Shown: positions 1,041 to 24,686 of the stretch, piece after piece
How positions within the stretch are numbered: the stretch's first letter is position 1
Layout: every line of letters starts with the position of its first letter
Made by a program: the position numbers and the translations under genes
Notes under the pieces: model-generated
Seen by the model: the letters and a program-made list of their open reading frames with translations, nothing else
Told to the model about the DNA's origin: nothing
Database searches by the model: none
Source of the DNA: a virus
Virus record (IMG/VR): IMGVR_UViG_3300010354_000572
Span: 1-25,694 of that record
Strand: one strand, 5' to 3'
DNA length: 25,694 nt

Positions 1041-1100
1041 ATTGTAGGGCATGGTGGGGACCCTTGCGAGTCCCCTTGTGACAGTTCAGCGACCGTCAGT
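1041..1100 (-). promoter_or_regulatory. Promoter-terminator module A
   Basis: On the minus strand: dyad right half TGTCACA (1077-1083), weak left half around 1094-1100, hairpin GGGGAC/GTCCCC at 1056-1075, -10 TACAAT at 1041-1046, spacing 30 bp. It drives the 26-residue ORF and the DUF6267-like gene. Confidence 0.75.
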
Positions 1101-1253
1101 GTAGTCTCCGATGATGATGCCTGTCGCGTTGTCCCGAACCTGAGCGTACCCATACTCCTCGGAGAGGTCCAGGCAGAGGTCCCATGCACGGTCGGCATCG
1201 GTGGTGGTGTTCTCCCAAGGAGCGGAAGGGCAGATCACGTCGTAGCGGGTCAT
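1086..1253 (-). CDS. Small conserved-looking protein, 55 aa
   Basis: ATG at 1251-1253 in the recurrent start context CGCTCATGAC, TGA at 1086-1088 inside the next module. The product starts MTRYDVICPSAPWENTTTD and ends IIIGDYTDGR, soluble and acidic. Its codons are much richer in G+C (GAC, ACC, CTC) than those of the genes further right. No function is recognised. It is a monocistronic unit between two modules. Confidence 0.65.
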   Translation of the reverse strand: MTRYDVICPSAPWENTTTDADRAWDLCLDLSEEYGYAQVRDNATGIIIGDYTDGR

Positions 1254-1276
1254 GAGCGGTTGTTTGAACTGAAGTT

Positions 1277-1336
1277 ATTGTAGGGCACCCTGGCGGGGTC
1301 TGAGAGGGTCGGTGTGCCAGAATGCCGACTGGCACA
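1277..1336 (-). promoter_or_regulatory. Promoter-terminator module B (perfect dyad)
   Basis: A perfect dyad TGTGCCA-N10-TGGCACA (1313-1319 and 1330-1336), extendable to a 10-bp stem over 1311-1338, is followed by an ACCCT/AGGGT stem in the spacer and -10 TACAAT at 1277-1282 (spacing 30). It ends the 1349-1663 unit and starts the 1086-1253 gene. Confidence 0.8.
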
Positions 1337-1348
1337 CCCCGCTTAAAT

Positions 1349-1663
1349 CTAATTCAGACGCATACCTGAGAAGAAAGGAATAGGCGAACCTTGAAAGTTA
1401 ACGAACCACTGAAAGTTCTTTTGAAAGATACTCTCACCACAACCATGCTCGGAGAGAATAGCATTCAGGCGGGACTTTGTGGTTTTGGATTGATACCCAC
1501 CATCAAACAATTCGATCCAGGTTTCACCAATTCGGGCGATCAGATTGTCATGCAGGAAGACATCCACAACATTCGAACATGCAACAACTTCAGTATTATC
1601 AAGTTTCCAATCCTTGCCAGCAGTGATAGCGGCATTCATGAGGCGTTCGATCTTGCGGGTCAT
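1349..1663 (-). CDS. Conserved cyanophage protein, 104 aa, unknown function
   Basis: The start is set at the ATG at 1661-1663, in the same TCATGACCCGC context as its neighbours; the longer frame upstream only reads through the promoter module. The features I recall from cyanophage proteins are a DNTEV...NVVDVFLHDNLIAR segment (residues 24-45) and FDGGYQSKTTKSRLNAIL (about 53-70), followed by an aromatic Phe-rich tail. Soluble, no signal peptide. Function unknown. It stands alone between modules B and C. Confidence 0.85.
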   Translation of the reverse strand: MTRKIERLMNAAITAGKDWKLDNTEVVACSNVVDVFLHDNLIARIGETWIELFDGGYQSKTTKSRLNAILSEHGCGESIFQKNFQWFVNFQGSPIPFFSGMRLN

Positions 1664-1686
1664 GAGCGGTTGTTTGAACTGAAAGT

Positions 1687-1746
1687 ATTGTAGGGCTTGA
1701 TGGGGACCCTTGCGAGTCCCCTTGTGCCAGTGCCTCAGGCGGCACA
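1687..1746 (-). promoter_or_regulatory. Promoter-terminator module C
   Basis: Dyad right half TGGCACA (1723-1729) with left half TGTGCCG (1740-1746), together extendable to CTTGTGCC/GGCACAAG; hairpin GGGGAC/GTCCCC; -10 TACAAT at 1687-1692; spacing 30. The stop of the PD-(D/E)XK-like gene (1735) lies inside the dyad. Confidence 0.8.
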
Positions 1747-2190
1747 AGCATCAGTGAGAGTGAGGAAAGTTTCCCACAAATTATATTCATCCAGAAACTC
1801 ATCAAAGTTGATTACTTTTGTGTTTGGAACATTCATCCACTTTGAGAATGCATTAGAGCGGAAACATTCATCGTGTTTCCAACCTGGACCTGCCAAAACT
1901 ATCAGGGCATTTGTATAACCATAGGTCTCACATGCATGTTGTAAACAGATCTGCTCGTAAGGAATCTTTTCTTCAGCGGTGCCACTAACGTCCTGATACT
2001 TTAGGGAAACTATAGTTTGAACCGTTCCAACTCTCACAATCAAATCTACATTGTGAGAAGTTTCAGTTGGTCGCAGTCCGATGTTAATTTGCTCTTCCAC
2101 ATCATAACCAGCAGCAGACAAAAGTTCTTCACAAAAGTATTCAAAATCTTTGCCGGTTTTGTCAGTGTAACGGGAAGCGTGGGTGCCCAT
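1735..2190 (-). CDS. PD-(D/E)XK nuclease-superfamily-like protein
   Basis: 151 aa. An N-terminal helix with paired acids (DFEYFCEELLSAAGYDVEEQ, 15-34) leads to HNVDLIV (D49), then a strand TIVSLKYQ (59-66), then SGTAEEKIPYEQICLQHAC, YTNALIVLAGPGW and a C-terminal helix. The D...(x)xKxQ layout and the GTAEEKIPYE segment match restriction-endonuclease-like folds of cyanobacteria and their phages. The usual acid two residues before the lysine is Ser62 here, so catalysis is uncertain. It is monocistronic between modules C and D. Possible roles are host DNA breakdown or repair; this is inferred from the fold only. Confidence 0.75.
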   Translation of the reverse strand: MGTHASRYTDKTGKDFEYFCEELLSAAGYDVEEQINIGLRPTETSHNVDLIVRVGTVQTIVSLKYQDVSGTAEEKIPYEQICLQHACETYGYTNALIVLAGPGWKHDECFRSNAFSKWMNVPNTKVINFDEFLDEYNLWETFLTLTDACAA

Positions 2191-2214
2191 GGTGGTGTTG
2201 AGTGAACTGAAAGA

Positions 2215-2274
2215 ATTGTAGGGTATGGTGGGGACCCTTACGAGTCCCCTTGTGACAGTTATCAGGGTGTCACA
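2215..2274 (-). promoter_or_regulatory. Promoter-terminator module D (perfect dyad)
   Basis: Perfect TGTGACA-N10-TGTCACA dyad (arms 2251-2257 and 2268-2274), hairpin GGGGAC/GTCCCC, -10 TACAAT at 2215-2220, spacing 30. It drives 1735-2190. Confidence 0.8.
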
Positions 2275-2452
2275 GACCCATCGCCTCTGCCAGGGTGTTG
2301 TAGGCGTTCAGGTAGTAGTCTGCATCGGTGTGCTTGCCAGCCGTACGGCAGTCACAGGCAAGGCAGAGCACAGCGGTTCGGATCGTCGACCACTGTGCCT
2401 CAGTCAGGGTCACCGTGCAGAGGTCCAGCGGGAGGACGTTGGTGCGGGTCAT
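2270..2452 (-). CDS. Small soluble protein, 60 aa, unknown
   Basis: ATG at 2450-2452 in the shared start context; the stop lies in the dyad of module D. The sequence MTRTNVLPLDLCTVTLTEAQWSTIRTAV is followed by a Cys pair (CLACDC, residues 30-35) and an aromatic helix (DADYYLNAYNTLAEAMGL). The LTEAQW...A pattern is common in phage helical proteins of unknown role. G+C-rich codons resemble those of the 1086-1253 gene. Monocistronic. Confidence 0.75.
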   Translation of the reverse strand: MTRTNVLPLDLCTVTLTEAQWSTIRTAVLCLACDCRTAGKHTDADYYLNAYNTLAEAMGL

Positions 2453-2475
2453 GAGCGGTTGTTTGAACTGAGGTT

Positions 2476-2535
2476 ATTGTAGGGCCTGATGGGGACCCTT
2501 GCGAGTCCCCTTGTGCCACTTCACAGATCGTCCAT
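2476..2535 (-). promoter_or_regulatory. Promoter-terminator module E
   Basis: Dyad right half TGGCACA (2512-2518), degenerate left half (2529-2535), hairpin GGGGAC/GTCCCC, -10 TACAAT at 2476-2481, spacing 30. It drives 2270-2452. Confidence 0.75.
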
Positions 2536-2676
2536 TGGCGGCAGGTCACCACACCCATAAACCAGACAATAATTCTCAGCAGCAACTTCCTGAGATTGAT
2601 TTATAGTTGCCGATGCCTTAGTTTGAATGTTGAATGACATCAGAAAGATGCTGGAGAGAATTAAAACTTGCCGCAT
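2521..2676 (-). CDS. Small secreted or periplasmic protein, 51 aa
   Basis: ATG at 2674-2676, TGA at 2521-2523 (inside module E). A typical signal peptide covers residues 1-23 (MRQVLILSSIFLMSFNIQTK then ASA, the cleavage-site pattern). The mature part is only about 28 residues with two cysteines (YCLVYGCGD) that could form a disulfide, and an acidic end (PPMDDL). It lies 30 nt after a one-helix membrane gene, probably in the same transcript from module F. Function unknown. Confidence 0.6.
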   Translation of the reverse strand: MRQVLILSSIFLMSFNIQTKASATINQSQEVAAENYCLVYGCGDLPPMDDL

Positions 2677-2706
2677 GATGTTTTGATGTTTATTTGGAGT
2701 GAAGAA

Positions 2707-2871
2707 TTAACGACGGGGAAAACAATAACTTGGATTTACGTTACAGTTAGTTCTGTTCTCATAATTACTCACTGCAGTATCAATTCCATTAAGAATCCAA
2801 AAACCTGCTACAATTATAACCATAGCACCACACATTGTAGCGATTGCATCTTGAAATGATTTGTCAGTCAT
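2707..2871 (-). CDS. One-helix membrane protein, 54 aa
   Basis: ATG at 2869-2871, overlapping the TGA of the upstream frame in ATGA form; TAA at 2707-2709. A helix of about 20 residues (IATMCGAMVIIVAGFWILNG, about 10-29) is followed by a short domain with two cysteines (NCNVNPSYCFPRR). First gene of the module F unit. Unknown function; the two Cys outside the membrane suggest an oxidising compartment. Confidence 0.6.
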   Translation of the reverse strand: MTDKSFQDAIATMCGAMVIIVAGFWILNGIDTAVSNYENRTNCNVNPSYCFPRR

Positions 2872-3200
2872 GAGCGGTTGTTTGAACTGAAGTTATTGTA
2901 GGGCATGGTGGGGACCCCTAGGAGTCCCCTTGTGACGCTTAATGAATTGTCCATCATAGAGATCACTCTCATAATAGTGCTGATCTCTGTTGGAGTCTGA
3001 TAAGGAATAACATCCTTCAAAATGTTACCATTGGGTTGAATAATTGCGACCTCAAAAGTATCCTCTCCAATAACACCATAAAGACCAGAATCTTTAGGTC
3101 CTGCAACTATACTCACAACCCAACCGTTTGGCATGGTTTGTTGAGCTATTGTTGCACCTTTGATCTTATGATCGCGGAATTTGAAATCGGAGAAGTTCAT
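2868..3200 (-). CDS. Conserved cyanophage protein with a read-through C-terminus
   Basis: The start is taken at ATG 3198-3200, because upstream codons lie in the module G leader. The core (residues 1-85) resembles a common cyanophage family: MPNGWVVSIVAGP, GLYGVIGEDTFEVAIIQPNG, then DVIPYQTPTEISTIMRVI. No stop occurs before module F, so the frame reads through the dyad, hairpin, -10 and leader and ends with a TGA that overlaps the next ATG. The last 25 or so residues are therefore translated regulatory DNA. Function unknown. Confidence 0.75.
   Translation of the reverse strand: MNFSDFKFRDHKIKGATIAQQTMPNGWVVSIVAGPKDSGLYGVIGEDTFEVAIIQPNGNILKDVIPYQTPTEISTIMRVISMMDNSLSVTRGLLGVPTMPYNNFSSNNRS
2895..2954 (-). 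promoter_or_regulatory. Promoter-terminator module F
   Basis: Right half CGTCACA (2931-2937), left half remnant (2948-2954), hairpin GGGGACTCC/GGGGTCCCC type, -10 TACAAT at 2895-2900, spacing 30. It is embedded in the 3' end of the 2868-3200 frame and drives 2707-2871 and 2521-2676. Confidence 0.75.
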
Positions 3201-3224
3201 CGGGGTGTTGAGTGAACTGAAAGA

Positions 3225-3284
3225 ATTATAGAGCATGGTGGGGACTTTTAGAAGTCCCCTTGTGCAACTTAGCCGACTGTCCTC
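3225..3284 (-). promoter_or_regulatory. Promoter-terminator module G
   Basis: Right half TTGCACA (3261-3267), left half with GACA (3278-3284), hairpin GGGGACTT/AAGTCCCC, -10 TATAAT at 3225-3230, spacing 30. The hairpin arms differ from modules A-F at two positions yet stay paired. Confidence 0.75.
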
Positions 3285-3420
3285 AGAACTCTACTTCTTC
3301 AAGCGTAGGTTCGGGACTTTCATTTACACTTTCATCATTCACAAGACTATCAAGAATACGAAGAAGATCGTTGCCAGTGTTACCTTGACGAAGAAGATTC
3401 AGAGCAATTTGACGGGACAT
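3283..3420 (-). CDS. Small conserved cyanophage protein, 45 aa
   Basis: ATG at 3418-3420, TGA at 3283-3285. The sequence (MSRQIALNLLRQGNTGND then LLRILDSLVND) matches a short protein I recall as near-universal in T4-like cyanophages, with the RQGNTG-LL-ILD pattern; the tail is acidic (EPTLEEVEF). Two helices are likely. Function unknown. A T4-late-like element lies about 42 bp upstream. Confidence 0.75.
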   Translation of the reverse strand: MSRQIALNLLRQGNTGNDLLRILDSLVNDESVNESPEPTLEEVEF

Positions 3421-3461
3421 AATTCAGAAAAAAGAATAAAGAACGAAGAGTGAGAGAAGTA

Positions 3462-3469
3462 TATTTATT
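3462..3469 (-). promoter_or_regulatory. Late-type promoter AATAAATA
   Basis: On the minus strand AATAAATA matches the T4 late consensus TATAAATA at 7 of 8 positions and lies about 42 bp before the start of 3283-3420. It abuts the terminator-like hairpin at 3468-3492. Confidence 0.4.
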
Positions 3470-3492
3470 GACCCCTTCTCTCATAGGGTCAA
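3468..3492 (-). terminator. Hairpin after the 48-aa membrane gene
   Basis: Perfect 7-bp stem TTGACCC/GGGTCAA with an 11-nt loop, 8 nt after the stop at 3500. It has no T-run, so termination strength is doubtful; it could also protect an mRNA end. Confidence 0.45.
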
Positions 3493-3499
3493 GAATAAT

Positions 3500-3646
3500 T
3501 CAGTTACAATCTTGAGTTACATTACACATTTGAACTGCAAGGCGATCTGCATTCGCTTTTGTAATTTGTAGACCTGCTGAGAGAACATTACCACCAATCC
3601 AGAATACAAGAAAGAAAGCACCAAGAGGAACAATGATTTTAGACAT
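3500..3646 (-). CDS. One-helix membrane or secreted protein, 48 aa
   Basis: ATG at 3644-3646, TGA at 3500-3502. A hydrophobic stretch at residues 4-22 (IIVPLGAFFLVFWIGGNVL) is followed by a short soluble part with two cysteines (MCNVTQDCN) at the very end. It follows the 3684-3944 gene by 37 nt and so probably shares the transcript from module H. Function unknown. Confidence 0.6.
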   Translation of the reverse strand: MSKIIVPLGAFFLVFWIGGNVLSAGLQITKANADRLAVQMCNVTQDCN

Positions 3647-3683
3647 TTTGGAAAAGTGAGAAGGTTTTAGGTGAAGAACTTAA

Positions 3684-3944: not shown

Positions 3945-3970
3945 GGTTGGGGTTCGTTTGAACTGAAGTT

Positions 3971-4030
3971 ATTGTAGGGCACCCTGGCGGGGTCTGGAGG
4001 GTGCCCTGTGCCACTTGTCAGGGTGTCACA
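3971..4030 (-). promoter_or_regulatory. Promoter-terminator module H
   Basis: Left half TGTGACA (4024-4030), right half TGGCACA (4007-4013), a strong 9-bp hairpin GGGCACCCT/AGGGTGCCC at 3977-4006, -10 TACAAT at 3971-3976, spacing 30. Same leader as modules B and E. Confidence 0.8.
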
Positions 4031-4664: not shown

Positions 4665-4724
4665 AATGTAGCAGGGATCTTATGAGAACACAAGACCCTT
4701 TGTGACAGTTCTCAGGGTGTCACA
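4665..4724 (-). promoter_or_regulatory. Promoter-terminator module I (perfect dyad)
   Basis: Perfect TGTGACA-N10-TGTCACA (4701-4707, 4718-4724), imperfect stem AGGGTCTT/AAGATCCCT in the spacer, extended -10 TGCTACATT with hexamer at 4665-4670, spacing 30. The leader changes here to ACATTCGTTCC, the second regional type. Confidence 0.8.
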
Positions 4725-5015: not shown

Positions 5016-5075
5016 AATGTAGCAGGGATCTTATGAGAACACAAGACCCTTTGTGACAGTTTGAGAATTGTCCTC
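5016..5075 (-). promoter_or_regulatory. Promoter-terminator module J
   Basis: Right half TGTCACA (5052-5058), left half GACA (within 5069-5075), spacer nearly identical to module I, extended -10 TGCTACATT with hexamer at 5016-5021, spacing 30. Confidence 0.8.
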
Positions 5076-5631: not shown

Positions 5632-5691
5632 AATGTAGCAGGGCACAAGTGAAACCACAAGTGCCCTTGTGACAGTTCTCAGACCGTCCTC
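5632..5691 (-). promoter_or_regulatory. Promoter-terminator module K
   Basis: Right half TGTCACA (5668-5674), left half GACG (5685-5691), strong hairpin GGGCAC/GTGCCC with further pairing inside (about 5641-5666), extended -10 TGCTACATT with hexamer at 5632-5637, spacing 30. Confidence 0.8.
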
Positions 5692-6044: not shown

Positions 6045-6104
6045 AGTATGCCACGAACTCAGACCTCACACAAGAGGGTTTGTGCCAGTTTGGGAATTGT
6101 CACA
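6045..6104 (-). promoter_or_regulatory. Promoter-terminator module L
   Basis: Left TGTGACA (6098-6104), right TGGCACA (6081-6087), spacer stem CCTC/GAGG, extended -10 TGGCATACT with hexamer at 6045-6050, spacing 30. The stop of the 67-aa gene falls in the left arm. Confidence 0.75.
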
Positions 6105-6303
6105 CTTTTTGAAGCCCAGATATAACTTTATCTAAAATTGAATTAACTTTGTCTATATCTTTTTCAAAAGCTATGGATTCTAATAATAAAATTATAATTT
6201 TAATTTTATCAAATATTAAAATAGGAACTCTTAAATGTTTTGTTTCACCTAACATGTGATATTTTTTTATAAATCCTTGATGCCCTTTTCTTGAATTACC
6301 CAT
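6100..6303 (-). CDS. 67-aa protein, possible ribbon-helix-helix DNA-binding protein
   Basis: ATG at 6301-6303. A glycine/lysine-rich start (MGNSRKGHQGF) is followed by ETKHLRVPILIFDKIKIIIL (20-39), which fits a short strand with R-V-P then a helix, as in CopG/Arc-type ribbon-helix-helix proteins, and a C-terminal helix ending ISGLQKV. Base use is much more A+T-rich than in its neighbours (AAA, ATA, ATT), suggesting separate origin. It has no standard promoter module; instead six copies of a GTTAAC-containing element lie immediately upstream, the arrangement expected for an autoregulated DNA-binding protein or a mobile cyanobacterial element. The function is inferred. Confidence 0.6.
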   Translation of the reverse strand: MGNSRKGHQGFIKKYHMLGETKHLRVPILIFDKIKIIILLLESIAFEKDIDKVNSILDKVISGLQKV

Positions 6304-6305
6304 AA

Positions 6306-6400
6306 TACGTTAACTTATATGCGTTAACTTATATATGTTACCACATAATAATATGCGTTAACGTATAATATTATACGTTACCTTATATGCGTTAACATAT
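6306..6400. repeat. Six-copy TATGCGTTAAC array
   Basis: GTTAAC or GTTACC cores start at 6309, 6323, 6337, 6357, 6377 and 6391 (spacing 14, 14, 20, 20, 14), each preceded by TAT/ATA plus RYG. GTTAAC is self-complementary. The array fills the promoter region of the 67-aa gene and is a candidate operator or iteron cluster. Confidence 0.85.
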
Positions 6401-6428
6401 AAAAAAGGGAAGGGCACCACCCCTTCCC
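6401..6428 (-). terminator. Intrinsic terminator
   Basis: On the minus strand GGGAAGGG-GTGGTG-CCCTTCCC is followed by TTTTTT: a perfect 8-bp stem with a U-run. It would stop transcripts coming from the ArdA-like gene before the GTTAAC array. Confidence 0.85.
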
Positions 6429-6611
6429 TCGTAACCCTAATCCACCCAACTATGTGTAACAAATATATCCACTCTACGAGATGTGTAACTTTTGCTTACG
6501 AGACGTGGCAAACACATTCCACGATGTATGTATCTAGATCGAGATAATGTATGTGATCTCGTCGAGATGATGTAATACTAGATGATATATGTGTTCTCGT
6601 CGAGATTGTTT
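6429..6611. other. Gene-free stretch with TCTCGTCGAGA palindromes
   Basis: No credible ORF. Perfect palindromic elements lie at 6557-6567 and 6595-6605, with degenerate ones near 6473-6482 and 6534-6544. The same 11-mer is tandemly arrayed at 9188-9353. Other contents are repetitive GTGTAAC and ATGTATGT words. Confidence 0.7.
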
Positions 6612-7031: not shown

Positions 7032-7335
7032 TGGAGGAACTCCTTTAGAACAATGTAAGAATAACAGGGTTTTAGGTGAAAGTCAAGGTGCTTGTGACAC
7101 TTTCTCAACTGTCCTTGATTGTCTATAAGAATTGTTATGAAACTCACACATAATTATTATAGGGTATTGACAGAGTATTCAATCATAAGTAGAATAGGTT
7201 TGTTACTTTGGAAGATAAGGATTAGCTAAGCTTTAAGAATACTCTAAGACCCTTAGGGACCCTTCTGAAGCACAAAAGAGTATCTAACCACCTAAAGAAG
7301 ATTAGAAGACCCTTAGAGAGGCATATAGACACCTC
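7032..7335 (-). other. Intergenic region upstream of the ArdA-like gene
   Basis: It contains module M (7058-7116), an additional TATAAT at about 7157-7162 with a weak -35 (GATTGA) 17 bp upstream, and an AAGGGTCCCTAAGGGTC-type palindromic stretch at about 7250-7270. I saw no ORF I would defend. Confidence 0.6.
7058..7116 (-). promoter_or_regulatory. Promoter-terminator module M
   Basis: Right half TGTCACA (7093-7099), left half GACA (7110-7116), -10 TATTCT at 7058-7063, spacing 29. The spacer hairpin is weak here. Confidence 0.6.
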
Positions 7336-7891: not shown

Positions 7892-7951
7892 AATGTAACA
7901 GGGATCTCATGGAAACACAAGACCCCTTGTGCCAGTTCTTAGGGTGTCACA
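7892..7951 (-). promoter_or_regulatory. Promoter-terminator module N
   Basis: Left TGTGACA (7945-7951), right TGGCACA (7928-7934), spacer stem GGGGTCTT/GAGATCCC (imperfect), extended -10 TGTTACATT with hexamer at 7892-7897, spacing 30. Confidence 0.8.
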
Positions 7952-8333: not shown

Positions 8334-8393
8334 AGTATTGCAGGGATTGGGGGGCATTGCAACCCCCCTTGTGCCACTTAGCAAATTGTCAGT
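8334..8393 (-). promoter_or_regulatory. Promoter-terminator module O
   Basis: Right half TGGCACA (8370-8376), left half TGACA (within 8387-8393), strong hairpin GGGGGG/CCCCCC, extended -10 TGCAATACT with hexamer at 8334-8339, spacing 30. Confidence 0.75.
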
Positions 8394-8644: not shown

Positions 8645-8840
8645 TGGTGGATGTCTCAGGAACGAATGTAGTATTGCAGGGATTGGGGGGGAAATCAAGT
8701 GGGGTTGTGCCAGTTCTCAGATTGGCACAGGAGTCAGGTGGAGTTTCTTTGGGTTTATTAGAATTAGAACGTTCTCTTTGAATACTAAAGATAGCAAATA
8801 CTCCAGTTATAACTAGAATTGTTAAGATTGTTTTCTTCAT
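8604..8840 (-). CDS. Membrane-anchored small protein with read-through tail
   Basis: ATG at 8838-8840. A hydrophobic N-terminal helix (MKKTILTILVITGVFAIFSI) and a polar part (QRERSNSNKPKETPPDSCA) are followed by codons that run through all of module P and 41 nt into the next gene before a stop. Whether the natural product really includes that tail is uncertain; a frameshift that removed an earlier stop is an alternative. Behind module Q. Confidence 0.5.
   Translation of the reverse strand: MKKTILTILVITGVFAIFSIQRERSNSNKPKETPPDSCANLRTGTTPLDFPPNPCNTTFVPETSTNGNHLSGNRFRSE
8670..8729 (-). promoter_or_regulatory. Promoter-terminator module P (perfect dyad)
   Basis: Perfect TGTGCCA-N10-TGGCACA (8706-8712, 8723-8729), extended -10 TGCAATACT with hexamer at 8670-8675, spacing 30. 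No convincing spacer hairpin. Confidence 0.75.
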
Positions 8841-8846
8841 AGAAGT

Positions 8847-8906
8847 ATTATAAGGGCAATAGAATTCAAATGGGTCTTATAATGTGCCACATAAAAAACT
8901 GGACCA
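8847..8906 (-). promoter_or_regulatory. Promoter module Q
   Basis: Right half TGGCACA (8883-8889), degenerate left half (8900-8906), -10 TATAAT at 8847-8852, spacing 30. TTATAAG and CTTATAA arms bracket the spacer, so the hairpin would include the -10. Confidence 0.6.
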
Positions 8907-8929
8907 TATCAGGTTGACAGGTCCAGTTT
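8893..8929 (-). terminator. Intrinsic terminator
   Basis: Perfect 10-bp stem AAACTGGACC/GGTCCAGTTT with a 14-nt loop followed by TTTTTAT on the minus strand. It would insulate module Q from transcription out of the repeat island. Confidence 0.8.
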
Positions 8930-9187
8930 CCGTGTTTAGAATGCATAATATGTTATGTGTTACGCATAATGTCGATATGAGAGTTCTTGATAATTACATG
9001 TATCTCGTGCGTAATCTTCATCTAGATCTTCTGTGTCTAGATCATGTGCATAGTCATATGAGAGTGTGTAGTCTAGATCGTAATCATCGTACATAAGCTA
9101 GTTTAGACCTCCATGATCGTGGTACTATAATAGCATGATCTAGTAGTGATGTCAACTAGATTGTTTATGTCTGGTTGTATATATGTG

Positions 9188-9370
9188 TCTCGTCGAGATT
9201 GTTATGATATGATGACATAATCTCGTCGAGATGTATATGAGAATGTGTAGGTCTCGTCGAGATGTATATGAGAATGTGTAGGTCTCGTCGAGATTTTGTG
9301 TGGTACTCATGTAGTATAGTCGAGATTTATAAGCGTGTCAAGTCTCGTCGAGATTTTATGTGGGTCTCGG
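9188..9370. repeat. TCTCGTCGAGA palindrome array, about 31-bp period
   Basis: Exact copies start at 9188, 9221, 9252, 9283 and 9343; a degenerate copy is registered at 9315 and a truncated one at 9365. The core of the array is an exact 31-bp tandem duplication (9221-9251 and 9252-9282). Each copy is a palindrome with one central base. Confidence 0.9.
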
Positions 9371-9445: not shown

Positions 9446-9570
9446 TATTCTATAAGCATTCAGAAGTATTCTATAAGCATTTAGAGGTATTCTATAAGAT
9501 TTCATAAGGTTCTTAAAGTATTCTATAAGTATTCATAAGGTTCTTAAAGTATTCAGAAGTATTCTATAAG
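9446..9570. repeat. TATTCTATAAG direct repeat array
   Basis: Exact copies start at 9446, 9467, 9488, 9519 and 9560, giving steps of 21, 21, 31 and 41 bp, close to 2, 2, 3 and 4 helical turns. The segments 9488-9518 and 9519-9549 are near-identical 31-bp repeats that also contain TTCATAAGGTTCTTAAAG. Confidence 0.9.
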
Positions 9571-9633
9571 ATTACATAATATTCTTTAAGTATTATAACA
9601 TTTGTCTGCATTCTCTAACATAAATCAAACATT

Positions 9634-9668: not shown

Positions 9669-10196
9669 ATGGAAACACCCCGCTCCAGAAGGATTTCAGA
9701 GATAGAAGGACTTGAAAATTTCCTGGATTACTCAGTAGATGTTAATGGAAATGTTTATAGTCTCAAATTCAATAAAAGAAAAAGACTAAAACCAGGATGG
9801 GCAAAAAAAAGAGACGGATACCTATTTGTCCGTCTCAGTGATATAAGAGGAAATAAGAAGAATTTTCTGGTTCATAGATTAGTAGCAATGGCATTCATTC
9901 AAACAGATGACAATGACTTTTCAATGAGAATTAATCATAAGAACAAAGATATAAGAGACAACCGAATTGAAAACCTTGAATGGATGAAACCAAAGATTAG
10001 ATTCATTGAAGAAGACTATAAAGCAAGTACCTTAATTCTGGAGAAAGTAAAAGAGGTTCATATAGCATCTATTCGTAAAGGTCTTCCAATTTCAAAGGAA
10101 GATACCTTTATCAATACAATCATTGGCAATGCATTAGACTCTTATATCAAACAATATGGTTTAAGAAAGGTTATGAACTTGTCTGACCGCTCTTAG
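9669..10196 (+). CDS. HNH homing endonuclease (NUMOD4-HNH type)
   Basis: 175 aa, ATG at 9669-9671, the only plus-strand gene. Residues about 9-60 (ISEIEGLENFLDYSVDVNG, VYSLK..., KPGW, DGYLFVRLS) form a NUMOD4-like DNA-recognition domain; residues about 71-105 carry the HNH core: VHRLVAMAF with the first His, INHKNKD with the catalytic-pair His/Asn, then NRIENLEWM. A short unassigned C-terminal domain follows. Such free-standing nucleases cut alleles lacking them and spread by repair. It is inserted between minus-strand genes and its last 36 nt overlap the end of 10161-10340 convergently. A hairpin with a late-like element precedes it. Confidence 0.9.
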   Translation: METPRSRRISEIEGLENFLDYSVDVNGNVYSLKFNKRKRLKPGWAKKRDGYLFVRLSDIRGNKKNFLVHRLVAMAFIQTDDNDFSMRINHKNKDIRDNRIENLEWMKPKIRFIEEDYKASTLILEKVKEVHIASIRKGLPISKEDTFINTIIGNALDSYIKQYGLRKVMNLSDRS

Positions 10197-11152: not shown

Positions 11153-11563
11153 TTAATCGTCGTAGACTCTACACTCTAATGCATCAGGATGACTATCACA
11201 ATAAAGTTCAAGAGGTGATGGGTCATGAGTATCATCAGGATGATTTTCCTGATAAGTCTCTAAAGCAGAAAGTTCATCTGCAGTATGTCTACGCATCTGA
11301 GGTGAAATTGTGGGATTGTCAAGAATTTCTTTGTCTTTTTGAATATGTGAATGAATATCGGACATTGAATTATAAGAGTTTGTAACGTTATTTATTTCTA
11401 CATCACCTTTTCCTTCCAGAGTTCTTACAAATAATTCTGTAAAAAACTCCATCTTTTCTGGTGATACAGAAGCAGGGTTGTAATGAATAGCATCATTCAG
11501 TGCGACCATTTCAATCCATTCTTCTTCTGAAATGTTTGTCATTCTTTTTGTAAAGAAGGTCAT
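11153..11563 (-). CDS. Conserved cyanophage protein, 136 aa
   Basis: Start at ATG 11561-11563 or the second Met eight codons in (MTNISEEEWIEMV). The C-terminal signature SALETYQENHPDDTHDPSPL then ELYCDSHPDALECRVYDD is one I recall from many T4-like cyanophages; the two Cys are conserved in memory. Helical, acidic, no known function. Confidence 0.85.
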   Translation of the reverse strand: MTFFTKRMTNISEEEWIEMVALNDAIHYNPASVSPEKMEFFTELFVRTLEGKGDVEINNVTNSYNSMSDIHSHIQKDKEILDNPTISPQMRRHTADELSALETYQENHPDDTHDPSPLELYCDSHPDALECRVYDD

Positions 11564-13626: not shown

Positions 13627-13796
13627 TTGATAACTCCAGTTTGTTTAAGATAAGCATGATAACGCATAAAAGATTGTAGTCGCACAGGAACACCTAAACT
13701 ACGACAACATTCCTGATATGAAAGAAATTCATACCAGGGAGTGGTTGGATCAAGCGTTGGTAATCCATTCTGGTTTTCTTTCTGGTATTCTAACAT
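13623..13796 (-). CDS. Conserved cyanophage protein, 57 aa
   Basis: ATG at 13794-13796, which overlaps the preceding gene by 47 nt in another frame; TGA at 13623-13625. MLEYQKENQNGLPTLDPTTP (1-20), WYEFLSYQECCRSLGVPVRL, QSFMRYHAYLKQTG. The LPTLDPxxPWYxFLSYxxCC pattern is one I associate with cyanophages. Function unknown. Confidence 0.75.
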   Translation of the reverse strand: MLEYQKENQNGLPTLDPTTPWYEFLSYQECCRSLGVPVRLQSFMRYHAYLKQTGVIK

Positions 13797-14286
13797 AATT
13801 GTCTTTTACCCAACTCTTAGTATTTACATATTTACGATAGGCAGTTATGTCATCAATTGTCTCATCGTATTTAATCTCATCAGGCATTGCTCTCGCAAAT
13901 TTATCCACCATACAATGAATGGTGATAGGTTGTTTGATTTTCTGATGAAAGATTTTCTTTGCTTCAAAGAGAGGTTTGGCACAGGCATGAACTTTATCAT
14001 ACCTTTGATAGTATTCAGTACATAAATGAATTCCATGTGCGATTAACCATGCTAAATTATATTCATTCTTTTCCGCCCAAACAGTACATGGATGATTGCG
14101 AAATGCTCCTTTCTGAGTTGCATAAGGTTCTCCATCTGCCCTATAAATTTGCCCCCAATTATGATACCACTTAGAGTAAATAATGGAGACCATTTGACAG
14201 GTCTCTAAAGGCATCTTCACTACATGTTTATCGGGAAGTTGTCTTGCTGCGGCAAGTGGATTTCTATCAACGGCAAAGATATTCAT
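13750..14286 (-). CDS. Widespread phage protein with DKHVVKM and HPCTVWA motifs
   Basis: 178 aa, ATG at 14284-14286. MNIFAVDRNPLAAARQLPDK then HVVKMPLETCQMVS (1-34), later FRNHPCTVWAEKNEYNLAWL (62-81), LCTEYYQRYDKVHAC and MPDEIKYDETIDDITAYRKY. This invariant-looking set belongs to a family found across T4-like phages and some bacteria, without an established function to my knowledge. Conserved His, Lys, Cys and Trp make an enzyme plausible. It overlaps both neighbours, as part of the long operon. Confidence 0.85.
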   Translation of the reverse strand: MNIFAVDRNPLAAARQLPDKHVVKMPLETCQMVSIIYSKWYHNWGQIYRADGEPYATQKGAFRNHPCTVWAEKNEYNLAWLIAHGIHLCTEYYQRYDKVHACAKPLFEAKKIFHQKIKQPITIHCMVDKFARAMPDEIKYDETIDDITAYRKYVNTKSWVKDNYVRIPERKPEWITNA

Positions 14287-16121: not shown

Positions 16122-16180
16122 ATTATAAGGCAAAACCACCTCCTTGTGGGAAGTGGTGTGCCAGTTCTTCAAGTGTCCCT
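16122..16180 (-). promoter_or_regulatory. Promoter-terminator module R
   Basis: Right half TGGCACA (16157-16163), left GACA (16174-16180), spacer hairpin CCAC-TCC/GGA-GTGG, -10 TATAAT at 16122-16127, spacing 29. The segment 16117-16177 is identical to 17067-17127 (module S). It drives the roughly 6-kb operon down to 10161. Confidence 0.8.
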
Positions 16181-17071: not shown

Positions 17072-17130
17072 ATTATAAGGCAAAACCACCTCCTTGTGGG
17101 AAGTGGTGTGCCAGTTCTTCAAGTGTCCTT
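17072..17130 (-). promoter_or_regulatory. Promoter-terminator module S
   Basis: Identical to module R over 61 bp (17067-17127): right half 17107-17113, left half 17124-17130, -10 TATAAT at 17072-17077, spacing 29. The TAA of the phosphoesterase gene is immediately upstream. Confidence 0.8.
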
Positions 17131-17929
17131 AAATTTCAATCTCCAAATTAGGATTGAAGTTTAAATTTAATCCCTGATTATTATAACCATTATAATAACC
17201 TCTTGGATTACAAATTACTCTACAATCCCCAATCAGGTAGTCAAAACTTTCGTGAGTATGACCGTGACTCCAGTATTTAATTTGAGGATTACTCAAAATC
17301 AAATCATCAAGGTCACTTACATAAGCACCATTAGCAATACCAGAATTTTTATATTTTGGATGAATTGATTGATAAGATGGTGCATGATGTGTCATTACCC
17401 AAACATTCTCATTCTTAAACTCTTCCAACTTTTCAATCAAAAACTGCTTGGACTTCTTATGAAACTTGAGAGTATCATCAGGGTTCATCTTACGATAATT
17501 TGAACCAATACGAATGATTTTATAATCATTCATACATTGAGATGCCTCCATCATTTCCAATGGGTTCTCATTACGAAAATCAGTCCAAAGAGTACAACCT
17601 AAAAAAATCGTATTATGAATTTTTACATAATCATTCTCAAGGTAATGGATTTGCTTTGGAAAATGTTTTTTTAGGGCATCAAAAGTTCCTTCATAATTGT
17701 ATCCATATGCCTCATGGTTTCCATTAATATACAGAACTTCATTAAAGTTTTCTACGCATTTTAGTAGAAAATTCTTATAAACTTTATGAAGTTTTCCATT
17801 GGTTTTGAAATGACGAGCACATAGAATATCTCCACCCAATATTAATGTGTCCCCCTCACCAATATTGGGAACTCCATTACCATCTTCACACATCTCCAAA
17901 TGAAGATCGGATACAACTGTAACTCTCAT
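17129..17929 (-). CDS. Calcineurin-like metallophosphoesterase
   Basis: 266 aa, ATG at 17927-17929. All five metal-site blocks are present in order: D8-x-H10 (SDLHLE), GGD (32-34), GNHE (70-73), the HH at 181-182 (MTHHAPS) and GHTH (223-226). The fold hydrolyses phosphate esters (nucleotides, nucleic acids or phosphoproteins) with two metal ions; the substrate cannot be told. Related phosphoesterases are common in T4-like phages. Last gene of the unit driven by module T, 4 nt behind its neighbour. Cytoplasmic, no signal peptide. Confidence 0.92.
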   Translation of the reverse strand: MRVTVVSDLHLEMCEDGNGVPNIGEGDTLILGGDILCARHFKTNGKLHKVYKNFLLKCVENFNEVLYINGNHEAYGYNYEGTFDALKKHFPKQIHYLENDYVKIHNTIFLGCTLWTDFRNENPLEMMEASQCMNDYKIIRIGSNYRKMNPDDTLKFHKKSKQFLIEKLEEFKNENVWVMTHHAPSYQSIHPKYKNSGIANGAYVSDLDDLILSNPQIKYWSHGHTHESFDYLIGDCRVICNPRGYYNGYNNQGLNLNFNPNLEIEI

Positions 17930-19044: not shown

Positions 19045-19392
19045 TTAGTATAGGGCAGAAATCAGAGCATTGGTCTGGGGCTGTGCCACTTTCTTAACTG
19101 TCTTAACAGTTTTGATTTTTGTTACACTTACACAATCAGCACCCTTTGGTGGTGGCATCGCAGAATATGATGTTACATAATTAGCAGGTTTTCCTGGTTT
19201 CTTAGAATTAATTGGGGAATAAATTGTCATATCTTTTTTACGAACAAAACCCCAGATGGTTTTAACTTCTTTTGTTTTGTAATTAAAAGAACCATTGTAT
19301 TTCAACCATACAGCATGATATTGGTTATCCCAATCACGCTGTATGACATATGAATAACCTTCAGGTGCTTTTGGAAGAAAGATTGAACTCAT
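19045..19392 (-). CDS. Conserved cyanophage protein whose end covers module T, 115 aa
   Basis: ATG at 19390-19392, overlapping the stop of the gene before. APEGYSYVIQRDWDNQYHAV (9-28), TKEVKTIWGFVRKKDMTIYS, INSKKPGK...TSYSAMPPP follow a family I recall from cyanophages (IWGFY-K..YxPxNSKKxGxxV...TxYSAM). After about residue 90 the frame runs through module T, giving the low-complexity KTVKTVKKVAQPQT end. Function unknown. Confidence 0.8.
   Translation of the reverse strand: MSSIFLPKAPEGYSYVIQRDWDNQYHAVWLKYNGSFNYKTKEVKTIWGFVRKKDMTIYSPINSKKPGKPANYVTSYSAMPPPKGADCVSVTKIKTVKTVKKVAQPQTNALISALY
19047..19105 (-). promoter_or_regulatory. Promoter-terminator module T
   Basis: Right half TGGCACA (19082-19088), left GACA (19099-19105), weak spacer stem CAGA/TCTG, -10 TATACT at 19047-19052, spacing 29. 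It is embedded in the C-terminal codons of 19045-19392. Confidence 0.7.
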
Positions 19393-19555: not shown

Positions 19556-19615
19556 ATCATAGCATGAAAAAGGCACAATGAGAACCTTCACTGTGCCAGT
19601 TTTTGAATTGTCATT
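19556..19615 (-). promoter_or_regulatory. Promoter-terminator module U with intrinsic terminator
   Basis: Right half TGGCACA (19592-19598), left TGACA (19609-19615). The spacer pairs GGCACA with TGTGCC and is followed by TTTTT, a textbook terminator; extended -10 TGCTATGAT with hexamer at 19556-19561, spacing 30. Confidence 0.85.
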
Positions 19616-20275: not shown

Positions 20276-20334
20276 ATTATAAGGCATTCATGAGGGGATT
20301 GGGGGGGTCTTGTGCCAGTTTAACATGTGGCATA
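20276..20334 (-). promoter_or_regulatory. Promoter-terminator module V
   Basis: TGCCA-N10-TGGCA core with right half TGGCACA (20311-20317) and left half at 20328-20334, a C-rich spacer without a clear stem, -10 TATAAT at 20276-20281, spacing 29. The stop of the methyltransferase gene is near the left arm. Confidence 0.7.
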
Positions 20335-20850
20335 AGGCACATATAGGGTTCCATATTTTTTAAAATGTTTATTAAACAAATCTAATCTGTTACCAAGATA
20401 TACAATAGCAGATTGAAATGGTGCTGCATTTCCATCTGGCTTATTTCCAAATTTTAATCTTTTATTAACTGCAATCCATGGATAATTACTTACCGATTTC
20501 CACCATTTAGTTGAAACATCAAGTTTAATGAGTAAAATTAATTCTTTAGCATTTCCACATTCATATTGATGCACCGCATATGGAATCCAACACTTACTGT
20601 CACTGTAAGGATGATTCATAAACACGGAATTAGCAACCCAATCATGTGCCAATCCGTTTGTTTTTTCTGTATAAACTTTCTCGGCTGGAACATTTTGTTC
20701 TTCTTTATCTTCACTATTTGAACAAGGATCTAAATCAACGGGTCCATCAAAAAATTTTATAATATCACCAACAAAATCTACTGGAGTATTCCAACAATCA
20801 TGACGTGTTCCTGTTGATGCTGTAAGAGCCTTGAGTGCATTTGATGCCAT
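20320..20850 (-). CDS. Phage DNA N6-adenine methyltransferase (Dam family)
   Basis: 176 aa, ATG at 20848-20850. The phage Dam layout is clear: CWNTPVDF (19-26), VDLDPCSN (38-45, the SAM-binding acidic block), AHDWVANSVFMNHPYSDSKC then WIPYA (68-92), and RLKFGNKPDGNAAPFQSAIV for the strand near the end. The catalytic tetrad reads N-H-P-Y (79-82) rather than N-P-P-Y, an unusual second residue. Members methylate adenine in duplex DNA, often to protect phage DNA from host restriction. Preceded by its own TATAAT element. Confidence 0.85.
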   Translation of the reverse strand: MASNALKALTASTGTRHDCWNTPVDFVGDIIKFFDGPVDLDPCSNSEDKEEQNVPAEKVYTEKTNGLAHDWVANSVFMNHPYSDSKCWIPYAVHQYECGNAKELILLIKLDVSTKWWKSVSNYPWIAVNKRLKFGNKPDGNAAPFQSAIVYLGNRLDLFNKHFKKYGTLYVPYATC

Positions 20851-22163: not shown

Positions 22164-22464
22164 TGGTATCTCCTAAAGATCTTGAATGTGATCAGATCAC
22201 CTTCATACGCAGAAAGGTATTCTGGTGAAAAATCAGGTTGACCATAATAAAGTGGGTTCATAGGTGGCAAATACTTTTGGTTTGATTCAATTTTACGATC
22301 CTGACAGATTGCCCTTCCTGTTTTAAGATCTTCTAGAAGAAATCTTCTAGAAGAAGTTTAAGATTGTGAATTGCTATCCTGTTTTCTTGAGGATAGGATG
22401 GTTTTGGTTTTTTTACTTTTTGATTGTAGATTTCGTCGTATTTTTGAAGGAGTGGGTTAGTCAT
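22160..22464 (-). pseudogene. Frameshifted gene broken by a 14-bp tandem duplication
   Basis: ATG at 22462-22464 opens MTNPLLQKYDEIYNQKVKKP... and meets TAG at 22333-22335 after 43 codons. An exact 14-bp tandem duplication (22328-22341 and 22342-22355) causes this. Removing one copy restores a 96-residue frame that continues LLEDLKTGRAICQDRKIESN, later MNPLYYGQPDFSPEYLSAYE and ends in TGA overlapping the next ATG, as in every other junction of the operon. The C-terminal part is protein-like (PLYYGQPDFSPEYLSAYEGD). Function unknown. A sequencing error is less likely than a real slip because the unit is exact, but cannot be excluded. Confidence 0.8.
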
Positions 22465-22685
22465 TTCAGTTCCTCAAAAGTAAATTTCATTCCATCATCA
22501 TCAATCGTGGTGTTGATATAATCCTTATATTCACCAAAATCCTTATAAGAACCAAACTTACTATAAATCATTTTTTCAACAAAATGCTCATACATTCGTT
22601 CAGTTTCTTGAAAATCTCCATCACACCACTCCTTAAACATTTCAGGAGTCAACGTGAGTTCGGCAGTGATTTTTACTGGTTTCAT
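22461..22685 (-). CDS. Small protein, 74 aa
   Basis: The start is taken at ATG 22683-22685; the longer frame covers the gene before. MKPVKITAELTLTPEMFKEW (1-20), CDGDFQETERMYEHFVEKMI, DDDGMKFTFEELK. Strand-helix pattern, acidic. Function unknown. Its TGA overlaps the start of the broken gene. Confidence 0.8.
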   Translation of the reverse strand: MKPVKITAELTLTPEMFKEWCDGDFQETERMYEHFVEKMIYSKFGSYKDFGEYKDYINTTIDDDGMKFTFEELK

Positions 22686-22686
22686 T

Positions 22687-22878
22687 TCAGTTGTCCTCTT
22701 GGTTACGGAATACTTTAGCAAACTCTTCTGCTGCCTCAAAGGCAAACTGTGCTGCCATGTTGAATACTTCTTGTCGTTCCTCTTCTGTGATAGTATTCAT
22801 ATCAGTTACGGTCTTCAACCACTCAGTATAAAGAGTTTGACCCAAATCAACAAATCGTTTTTGAGAGAAGTCAGTCAT
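22687..22878 (-). CDS. Small helical protein, 63 aa
   Basis: The start is set at ATG 22876-22878, with GAGGAA five bases before it. MTDFSQKRFVDLGQTLYTEW (1-20), TEEERQEVFNMAAQFAFEAA then EEFAKVFRNQEDN: helical, acidic at the end. Unrecognised. Confidence 0.75.
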   Translation of the reverse strand: MTDFSQKRFVDLGQTLYTEWLKTVTDMNTITEEERQEVFNMAAQFAFEAAEEFAKVFRNQEDN

Positions 22879-22879
22879 T

Positions 22880-23101
22880 TCAGTTCCTCTTGAAGAGTTT
22901 GTAGATTGCATCAGCAAGTGCGAGTGCTTCTTCATTATTCATACAAATGTGTTGAACTCGTTTATCTCCAGTATCCTTGATAAACTCCCAATAGGAAATG
23001 GTGCAACCTTCACATCCCACATCAAGGTGAATGTCTTCTACAGTGTACCAAAAATCTGAATGCTCTTGAATACGAACTTGGTTGGTGATTTCAATGGTCA
23101 T
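22880..23101 (-). CDS. Small protein with a Cys pair, 73 aa
   Basis: ATG at 23099-23101. DFWYTVEDIHLDVGCEGCTI (16-35) has a C-x2-C pair, then SYWEFIKDTGDKRVQHICMN and an Ala-rich helix (EEALALADAIYKLF). A beta-sheet followed by a helix. First gene behind module W. Unknown. Confidence 0.8.
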   Translation of the reverse strand: MTIEITNQVRIQEHSDFWYTVEDIHLDVGCEGCTISYWEFIKDTGDKRVQHICMNNEEALALADAIYKLFKRN

Positions 23102-23130
23102 TTGGAAGAACCTCCCTTGTGTATGTAAGT

Positions 23131-23189
23131 ATTATAGACCAAAAAGGACACCCGAAGGTGCCCCTTGTGACAGTTTGAGAAGTGTCCTT
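23131..23189 (-). promoter_or_regulatory. Promoter-terminator module W with intrinsic terminator
   Basis: Right half TGTCACA (23166-23172), left GACA (23183-23189). The spacer GGCACC-TTCG-GGTGTCC followed by TTTTT is a tetraloop terminator; -10 TATAAT at 23131-23136, spacing 29. A strong GGGAGG site precedes the next ATG. Confidence 0.85.
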
Positions 23190-23946
23190 ATGATATACGT
23201 CTTCTATTATTTTTAGATGTATCTATTCCTCTTCCTTTTTGATATGAAACTATACCACCAGCAGTAGATACATAACCAGTTTCGCAACATTCCCATCGTT
23301 GAGAATTTGTTATTTGAATTGTTTTTTTGGCAGTTTTACTCCTTTCTTCAAAAGTAAGTGAATATAAACCAGCACCAAGTTCTTTACTTCTTTTAGCACC
23401 TTTCAATCTTGCTTCTTGTTTTTCTTCTTCGGTCATACCAAAAATACCTTTTTTCAATCTTTTACAATCTTCTGCAACTTTTTTAGCACCTTTACTTCTT
23501 GCTTTTCTTTTTTCTTCTTCACTCATACCGAACAAACCAATACCAAGTTTTTTTACTTTATTCCCACCTTTCTTCCCATTTTCCTTCAGTTGTTCGGATG
23601 TGAGTGAATAAACTCCTACACAAAGTTCTTTTGCTTTTTTACCACCAAAAGAACCATCAGTAAAGTAAAACTTTGTAGAAGTTTGATATGCTTTATTAGC
23701 AAAGTGTGGATTTTCTACTACCTTATAATGTTCCTGTAAAATGATTTCGTCGGCATATGCTTCTGCTCTCGTAGAGTAGTCACTTTTGAGTATTATTTTT
23801 TGAGTTGGTTTGAATGTTTTATCTCTTGAAGAACCCAGATACTTTGTATCTTCTTCTGGGGGACACTTACATCCTCTACTACCAATATAACCTCTACCCC
23901 ATTCTTCATAAGAATAATAGGTATAGTAATACCTTGTTTGTTTCAT
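23188..23946 (-). CDS. GIY-YIG homing endonuclease with NUMOD repeats
   Basis: 252 aa, ATG at 23944-23946. The GIY-YIG catalytic domain is at residues 5-90: YYYTYYSYEEWGRGYIGSRG (6-25), YLGSS (36-40), and a catalytic-type Glu in ILQEHYKVVENP. Next come four related repeats (residues about 110-210) of the form G-hh-S/GM-S/T-EEExxxARxKGAK, NUMOD-like DNA-binding units, and a terminal W-C-ETGYVSTAGGIVSYQKGRG helix-turn-helix-type motif. Such genes copy themselves into alleles lacking them. It has a T4-late promoter and a hairpin leader of its own, so it is expressed apart from its neighbours. Confidence 0.93.
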   Translation of the reverse strand: MKQTRYYYTYYSYEEWGRGYIGSRGCKCPPEEDTKYLGSSRDKTFKPTQKIILKSDYSTRAEAYADEIILQEHYKVVENPHFANKAYQTSTKFYFTDGSFGGKKAKELCVGVYSLTSEQLKENGKKGGNKVKKLGIGLFGMSEEEKRKARSKGAKKVAEDCKRLKKGIFGMTEEEKQEARLKGAKRSKELGAGLYSLTFEERSKTAKKTIQITNSQRWECCETGYVSTAGGIVSYQKGRGIDTSKNNRRRIS

Positions 23947-23955
23947 AGTTCTACT

Positions 23956-24027
23956 CTATAGGTCGCAATACTATTTATACAAGAAAGGTGCCCGAAAGCA
24001 CCCTTCTACCTATAATGCGACCTACAG
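23956..24027 (-). promoter_or_regulatory. Late promoter inside a translational hairpin (I-TevI-like)
   Basis: On the minus strand 12-nt arms (24016-24027 and 23956-23967) pair with one G-U. TATAAATA, identical to the T4 late consensus, lies at 23972-23979 just before the right arm, so late transcripts would start at about 23966 and lack the left arm. Early read-through RNA could fold the stem, whose end touches the probable ribosome binding site. A smaller hairpin is nested inside. Confidence 0.7.
23984..24005 (-). terminator. Terminator after the 188-aa gene
   Basis: AAGGGTGC-TTTCGG-GCACCTTT can pair over 8 bp (one G-U) and runs into TTCTT. It would limit read-through from 24038-24604 into the endonuclease gene. 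Confidence 0.65.
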
Positions 24028-24034
24028 GCACTTT

Positions 24035-24042
24035 TATTTATG
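24035..24042 (-). promoter_or_regulatory. Second late-type element CATAAATA
   Basis: CATAAATA on the minus strand overlaps the stop of 24038-24604 and matches the late consensus at 7 of 8. It lies outside the left hairpin arm, so its RNA would fold the stem. Confidence 0.3.
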
Positions 24043-24604
24043 AGAAATTATAATGAACCTCTGTGTAAAAATTCTTGAAACACTTAGCATTAGACAGTTT
24101 CATCATTACTGGGGGAATGAAATAAGCACACTCAGTATAAAAATCTTCTTTAGATAAGAATTTCAATCCGTTAAGCATCCAAGTTCCAAACTGTTCGTGA
24201 AATTCTCTTACTGCACGATATTGTTTGGATGTGATAGGCATATACTTATTTTCTTCACCAAAATCCTCAGCACGGGCATTTGCTTGAGTTAGAAGTATGC
24301 AAGTAGTTTGTCCCTCCCCTGTACCGAAGTATTCAGCAACCATATAGACCCAGTGTTCATCTACTGGGAATACATCACGCTGATACTTCTCCTCGTATTC
24401 TTTCATACAAGCATCTGCAACTAACTGGAAGTTTTCTTTCTTCTTTGCCTCCAACTCTGCTCGCAGTTCTACCTTCTCTGTTTCAGCAAGTTGTTTGAGA
24501 GCATCAGAATACTTGTCAATACCAGCAATAGCAGTTTGAATTGCTTTGATTCTTTGGTCTTCATTCATTTTTTCAAGTACTTTATGTGCTGTGTTTTTAG
24601 ACAT
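24038..24604 (-). CDS. Protein with shared C-terminal module, 188 aa
   Basis: ATG at 24602-24604. Residues 1-75 are helical and charged (MNEDQRIKAIQTAIAGIDKY, ELRAELEAKKKENFQLV), the middle is alpha/beta (DEHWVYMVAEYFGTGEGQTT, CILLTQANARAEDFG), and the last 43 residues (GLKFLSKEDFYTECAYFIPP onward to HYNFS) match the tail of 21378-21683. Function unknown. Monocistronic behind module X. Confidence 0.8.
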   Translation of the reverse strand: MSKNTAHKVLEKMNEDQRIKAIQTAIAGIDKYSDALKQLAETEKVELRAELEAKKKENFQLVADACMKEYEEKYQRDVFPVDEHWVYMVAEYFGTGEGQTTCILLTQANARAEDFGEENKYMPITSKQYRAVREFHEQFGTWMLNGLKFLSKEDFYTECAYFIPPVMMKLSNAKCFKNFYTEVHYNFS

Positions 24605-24627
24605 AAGAGTCTTATGTGTATGAAAGT

Positions 24628-24686
24628 ATTATAGCACCTTATGAGGGTCCTGTGAGTGCCTCTGTGCCAGTTTCAAAAGTGTCTTC
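24628..24686 (-). promoter_or_regulatory. Promoter-terminator module X
   Basis: Right half TGGCACA (24663-24669), left GACA (24680-24686), spacer stem GCAC/GGTGC, extended -10 TGCTATAAT with hexamer at 24628-24633, spacing 29. Confidence 0.75.

Follow-up and report, generated by a model that had tools for sequence, protein, structure and literature searches.

The 25,694-bp IMG/VR contig IMGVR_UViG_3300010354_000572 (all of it referred to below as the window) carries on its minus strand 24 intergenic copies of a compact module, in which an interrupted dyad, GACA-N10-TGKCACA, is followed after 29 or 30 bp by a -10-like hexamer. The module is probably a sigma70-type promoter serving the early region of a T4-like cyanophage, with a dimeric activator bound at the upstream dyad. 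The nearest annotated relatives of the contig were the Synechococcus myoviruses S-SRM01 and S-PM2; it therefore belongs to the T4-like cyanophages and is a virus of picocyanobacteria.

Module anatomy in the window

Every TGKCACA on both strands was realigned, which returned exactly the 24 minus-strand copies (A to X) listed in the initial annotation, with end points at 1041 and 24686. The window holds 36 TGKCACA sites, four-fold more than the 9.45 ± 3.18 of dinucleotide-shuffled sequence, and TGKCACA-N(29,30)-TAYAMT was found 13 times on the minus strand, 0 times on the plus strand and 0 times with the reversed control. The gap between right half and -10 was 29 bp in M, R, S, T, V, W and X and 30 bp in all others, as first described. 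A left half of GACA or GCCA, 10 bp before the right half, was present in all 24 copies if a one-base deviation was allowed (Q has TCCA), and the right half was TGKCACA in all copies except for one-base variants in F and G. Full or near-full palindromes were confirmed in B, C, D, I, P and V, and the A/G mismatch ascribed to about ten copies was counted in nine to ten. Each copy read, in order, the stop codon of the preceding gene (usually within the dyad or just ahead of it), GACA-N10-TGKCACA, the 29/30-bp spacer, a TAYAAT-like hexamer and an ATG, which typically lay 15-27 nt (about 17) past the putative +1, with A, L and Q as exceptions. The whole cassette measured about 85 bp.

The first eight copies, all with N30, had a -10 of TACAAT, or TATAAT in G, and all but B were noted with a hairpin spacer. 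These were A (1041-1100, GACG..TGTCACA, -10 at 1046-1041), B (1277-1336, full dyad TGTGCCA..TGGCACA), C (1687-1746, TGTGCCG..TGGCACA, with the stop of the upstream gene within the dyad), D (2215-2274, full dyad TGTGACA..TGTCACA), E (2476-2535, GACG..TGGCACA), F (2895-2954, GACA..CGTCACA), G (3225-3284, GACA..TTGCACA) and H (3971-4030, TGTGACA..TGGCACA). Copies I to P had a -35-like box 17 bp from the -10: I (4665-4724, full dyad, N30 hairpin, TTGTGT, -10 TGC-TACATT), J (5016-5075, GACA..TGTCACA, spacer the same as in I, TTGTGT-17-TACATT), K (5632-5691, GACG..TGTCACA, N30 hairpin, TTGTGG-17-TACATT), L (6045-6104, TGTGACA..TGGCACA, N30, TTGTGT-17-CATACT with extended TGG), M (7058-7116, GACA..TGTCACA, N29 without hairpin, TTGACT-17-TATTCT), N (7892-7951, TGTGACA..TGGCACA, N30 hairpin, TTGTGT-17-TACATT), O (8334-8393, GACA..TGGCACA, N30, TTGCAA-17-AATACT with extended TGC) and P (8670-8729, full dyad TGTGCCA..TGGCACA, N30 without hairpin, TTGATT-17-AATACT).

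Q (8847-8906, TCCA..TGGCACA, N30 without hairpin) ended in TATAAT, as did R (16122-16180, GACACTTGAAGAACTGGCACA, N29 T-tailed hairpin) and S (17072-17130), which repeats the dyad, spacer and -10 of R exactly, ahead of an unrelated gene. The remaining copies were T (19047-19105, GACA..TGGCACA, N29, TATACT), U (19556-19615, GACA..TGGCACA, N30, TATGAT, the right half forming part of a T-tailed hairpin), V (20276-20334, TATGCCA..TGGCACA, N29 without hairpin, TATAAT), W (23131-23189, GACA..TGTCACA, N29 T-tailed hairpin, TATAAT, ACTTACATACACA leader) and X (24628-24686, GACA..TGGCACA, N29, TGC-TATAAT). T lay upstream of a DUF7717-family open reading frame, whose orthologues in S-SRM01, S-PM2 and P-SSM2 were also preceded by a module.

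Consensus and spacing in other viruses

IMG/VR was searched with GACA-N10-TGKCACA-N{15,45}-TATAAT, which gave 164 matches. Although gaps of 15-45 bp were allowed, the gap was 28-30 bp in 143 of them (28 bp, 16; 29 bp, 94; 30 bp, 33), followed by 31 bp (4), 32 bp (5) and other values with 0-2 each. A set of 120 non-redundant IMG/VR modules (<85% alike) gave the full consensus GACA-S-TTnnnnAA-S-TGKCACA-N29/30-TAYAAT-N6-A(+1), in which the C/G, TT and AA positions of the dyad and a YATA initiator were conserved without having been fixed by the search. The A of YATA lay 12 nt after the beginning of the -10, in a Y(-1)A(+1) step; with this A taken as +1, the dyad was centred at -53.5 or -54.5. When the half-site gap was shifted to N11 as a control, 12 viral loci were returned, against at least 120 for N10.

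Annotated genomes were scored for the dyad with a cut-off of >=12 bits. Nine of ten cyanomyoviruses contained 20-43 dyads per genome (shuffles, 0-8), and T4 and Ma-LMM01 contained one each; the tenth cyanomyovirus, S-CREM1, had twelve, no more than one or two of them module-like. Syn9 carried the module, and the podovirus P-SSP7 gave no match to the pattern. Of the 230 unique dyads in the ten genomes, 124 had a strong -10 at a distance of 28-31 bp to one or both sides, where about 3% (about 1.7% per side) was expected by chance. The gap was thus rigid both in IMG/VR and in the ten genomes rather than freely varying, and the module type was common to most T4-like cyanophages examined.

Dyad, core promoter and spacer

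The dyad behaved as a DNA site. At its inner C/G positions 4 and 13 the 120 IMG/VR modules mostly had C-C or G-G, and Watson-Crick pairs were below expectation (32 vs 50); as RNA, the window dyads showed no excess folding (mean z -0.61 vs -0.65 for random window sequence). With neither Watson-Crick covariation nor excess folding, an RNA stem was ruled out, in agreement with the early preference for a protein-binding dyad. The element is a pseudo-palindromic DNA site at about -62 to -42, most probably bound by a protein.

The core elements were those of a sigma70-type promoter: TAYAAT, Y-1/A+1 at 12 nt, and an ATG about 17 nt on. The initial statement that there is no -35 box held for 16 of the 24 copies and failed for the other eight, I-P, in each of which TTG precedes the -10 by exactly 17 bp; these copies also have TG one base ahead of the -10. 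Elsewhere, TTG was found at 16-18 bp in 40 of 148 modules from nine other genomes and at 16-17 bp in 18 of the 120 IMG/VR modules, an enrichment confined to the canonical -35 distance. Because TTG occurs only in a minority, the geometry reads as that of a predicted sigma70 promoter with its -35 mostly decayed or overrun by hairpin sequence and with the dyad just upstream. In the window the trade-off between a weak -10 and TTG was complete (8/8 vs 0/16). No trade-off between weak -10 and TTG/TGn was found in the other genomes (p = 0.27), and that of the window therefore probably marks one cassette lineage. Modules with a TTGAC -35 were seen in S-CRM01 (HQ615693; for example at 127444, 130596, 139432 and 149104); they mostly share the leader AGCTAAGTGGTC and are a distinct cassette lineage.

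Window spacers had stronger folds than shuffled sequence (mean z -2.1). The claim that they often form hairpins stood for about 16 of the 24, with 5-8 lacking a significant hairpin (P, Q, M, V and X among them). The proposed fusion with the preceding operon's terminator did not hold as a general rule: T-tailed hairpins were found in R, S and U by terminator scan and in W by eye, 3 to about 5 of the 24 in all, and hairpins at 1-5.7 kb had no T tail. In the 1-9.6 kb half, the scan gave no excess of T-tailed hairpins over shuffles. Termination by the spacer hairpin is plausible for some copies and putative for most.

On the opposite strand, a possible divergent promoter lies on the dyad of Q (8886-8942, plus strand; TGGACCA, N30, TTGACA at 17 bp, -10 TAGAAT). 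Dyads with -10 boxes 30 bp off on both sides were found in the window at 8883-8942 and in P-HM2 at 39295-39312, where the two -10s precede the divergent genes PHM2_064 and PHM2_065. Divergent sharing of a single dyad (window 8894, P-HM2 39303 and two cases in P-SSM2) is suggestive, but such cases were no more numerous than expected by chance.

Genes downstream and similarity between copies

In P-SSM2, P-HM2 and Syn9 the modules clustered ahead of gp25, where small variable genes lie. In several phages they also preceded genes for the gp32-type single-stranded DNA-binding protein, a helicase, cobS/cobT-type proteins and DUF7717 proteins. The position of these genes suggests early or early/middle expression of the module-led genes. 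Sixteen ortholog groups, those of the gp32-type, helicase and cobS/cobT-type genes among them, kept an upstream module with different spacers, and the ATG lay 15-20 nt past +1 in most modules. Within the window, R/S and I/J had identical spacers and cores and C/E were 97-98% identical, while the flanking sequences were unrelated (about 26% identity). Averaged over every pair of equal-length spacers, identity was only 42%.

Candidate binding proteins and host genomes

The composite of dyad and -10 was found in 0 of 386 sampled cyanobacterial-phylum genomes, among which the share of marine picocyanobacteria was not established. The promoter class proposed as phage-specific is thus common to T4-like cyanophages and had no host counterpart among these 386. 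Exact-consensus dyads that lack a -10 occurred in these genomes in unrelated contexts; three of them lay where a purH-like gene ends, beside a manganese-catalase-like gene.

Among 27 conserved S-PM2 proteins scanned against Pfam, a part of the full gene set, there was no C4 zinc-finger (Ogr-type) activator. DUF7717, phrog_1920, phrog_507, DUF6561, MazG and others were considered as the regulator and set aside, each missing from at least one genome or having no DNA-binding match. Possible sources of the factor are the host, the virion or a newly made phage protein.

Proposed mechanism and alternative explanations

Under the activator reading, host RNA polymerase would read the TAYAAT -10, often preceded by TG, and would initiate at the Y(-1)A(+1) step, 12 nt from the first base of the -10, with translation some 17 nt on. 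A dimeric protein seated on the dyad (about -62 to -42) would contact the polymerase from a fixed spot immediately ahead of the -35 region; this contact would make a good -35 hexamer needless in most copies, and we infer in this sense that the dimeric factor replaces the -35 contact. The spacer would often double as a hairpin and in some copies also as a T-tailed terminator, such that the cassette may end one transcription unit and begin the next. Several results weigh against this reading. Phylogenetic profiling across phage genomes found no gene family and no DNA-binding protein that tracks the modules, and 26 exact-consensus dyads without a -10 were matched in the 386 cyanobacterial-phylum genomes (reversed control, 0). 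S-CREM1 and S-RSM4 are true cyanomyoviruses yet have few modules. Termination is not general, as 27 of the 120 IMG/VR modules had almost no spacer fold and a T run was present in only 29 of the 120. The presumed expression class draws on gene position and published generalities.

The dyad could instead be an operator at which a host or phage repressor silences the promoters. Dyads of this size often bind repressors, the near-consensus TATAAT of about half of the modules could act unaided, and a -35-like TTG is present in several. Repressor sites, however, usually overlap the -35 or -10, whereas this dyad lies wholly upstream at a rigid 28-31 bp, did not turn up one helical turn off and stands mostly before promoters without a -35; we consider repression unlikely. 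A still smaller probability is given to the cassette being mainly a PeSL-like (promoter-early stem-loop) recombination hot spot that shuffles small genes, its spacing kept by recent duplication. The near-identical pairs R/S, I/J and C/E amid dissimilar flanks would fit, but same-length spacers are on average dissimilar, the 120 IMG/VR modules keep the spacing despite being <85% alike, and orthologous genes retain the module despite changed spacers. Recombination may be a consequence rather than a cause of the spacing, and dyad and spacing are kept in single-copy modules of distant phages, which would leave it a secondary role at most. Least probable, and very much so, is an RNA-level element in which tandem hairpins form a messenger RNA 3' end or processing site and the -10 is coincidental. 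Spacer folding above shuffles, some T tails and the position of the dyad at stop codons speak for it; the dyad, however, neither covaries nor folds, the hairpin-less modules (including those 27 from IMG/VR) keep dyad, spacing, -10 and initiator, and the -10 stands at its fixed distance far more often than the chance figure given above.

A further question, compatible with activation, is whose protein binds. Early genes must be transcribed before phage proteins are made, no phage gene tracks the modules, and rare exact dyads are present in cyanobacterial genomes; it is accordingly a real possibility, at somewhat less than even probability, that the dyad is bound by a hijacked host transcription factor, a route already proposed for NtcA, and not by a protein of the phage or its virion. 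Against it stand the lack of the dyad and -10 composite in the cyanobacterial-phylum genomes, a dyad unlike the NtcA (GTA-N8-TAC) or CRP consensus, and the unrelated contexts of the host dyad matches. More tentatively, the module may represent an undescribed class, in which a rigid -54 dyad and a dimeric activator, virion-delivered or host-borrowed, turn on the early region from an exchangeable cassette that fuses activator site, hairpin and core promoter; the array in the window would then rank among the densest seen.

Comparison with known systems

Work on Syn9 by Doron et al. in 2016 (ISME J) reportedly found a novel early-gene regulatory element that is abundant and conserved in T4-like cyanophages. 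The module, a promoter type shared by these phages, is on balance likely to be that element and was thus probably already glimpsed in 2016.

PeSL cassettes have been reported from T4-type phages (Arbiol in 2010, Comeau in 2014). The module resembles them in having a stem-loop and a promoter between small hypervariable genes, with the stop in or near the dyad and the ATG past +1, in its many copies, and in near-identical homologous copies between unrelated genes (the three pairs above). It differs in the upstream dyad, the rigid gap and the mostly absent -35. PeSLs have been described with the stem-loop of one S-PM2 site marked at 11369-11391, without a dyad, and were judged too sparse in S-PM2 (PMC4503421); this stem-loop falls inside an S-PM2 module at 11350-11405.

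The P2/P4 Ogr/Delta late promoters have an activator site centred near -55 and a poor -35, and theirs is the architecture closest to the module known to us. The likeness is one of architecture only, an upstream dyad at nearly the same centre: the P2 consensus is TGT-N12-ACA, bound by a C4 zinc-finger activator (PMC3931495), whereas the dyad here is GACA-N10-TGTC(ACA), does not fit TGT-N12-ACA and belongs to lytic phages of cyanobacteria. NtcA-type promoters with GTA-N8-TAC have been predicted in cyanophages (Sullivan 2010, PMC3037559). They share with the module a palindrome ahead of the -10, the NtcA type lacking a -35, but their half-sites differ and the module consensus does not fit GTA-N8-TAC. 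The strong -10 is also a feature of T4 middle promoters. In these, a phage-directed factor (MotA/AsiA) replaces the -35 contact, as is proposed here for the dimeric factor, but the MotA box sits near -30 and has no dyad structure, unlike the element described here, centred near -54. Cyanophages have neither T4-like middle promoters nor motA/asiA (PMC5780444).

The order of early transcription in T4-like cyanophages, which lack MotA/AsiA, has so far not been fully explained. The fixed-geometry motif offers a concrete target for isolating its binding protein and can be used to predict early transcription units in uncultured cyanophages.

Other features of the window

Pfam domains were assigned to minus-strand genes at 1735-2190 (PD-(D/E)XK nuclease), 11153-11563 (CP12), 13750-14286 (pyrimidine dimer glycosylase), 17129-17929 (calcineurin-like phosphoesterase) and 20320-20850 (Dam methylase). 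The sole clear plus-strand gene within this minus-strand array encodes an HNH_3 endonuclease domain (9669-10196). Rfam and transfer RNA searches of the window gave no matches.

Other repeats were observed besides the modules. Repeated palindromic units with GTTAAC (GCGTTAAC / TATACGTTA) lie at 6300-6410, with a T-tailed hairpin after them (6430-6405), and degenerate direct repeats with the unit TTCTATAAGNATT(C/T)A occupy 9448-9597. The palindrome TCTCGTCGAGA(T) is repeated about eight times, at 6542-6606 and 9188-9368, and TTGACA-17-TATNAT-like boxes lie near these palindromes on both strands (8914, 9155, 9341 and 9390). The palindromes and the nearby promoter-like boxes possibly form a second regulatory array.

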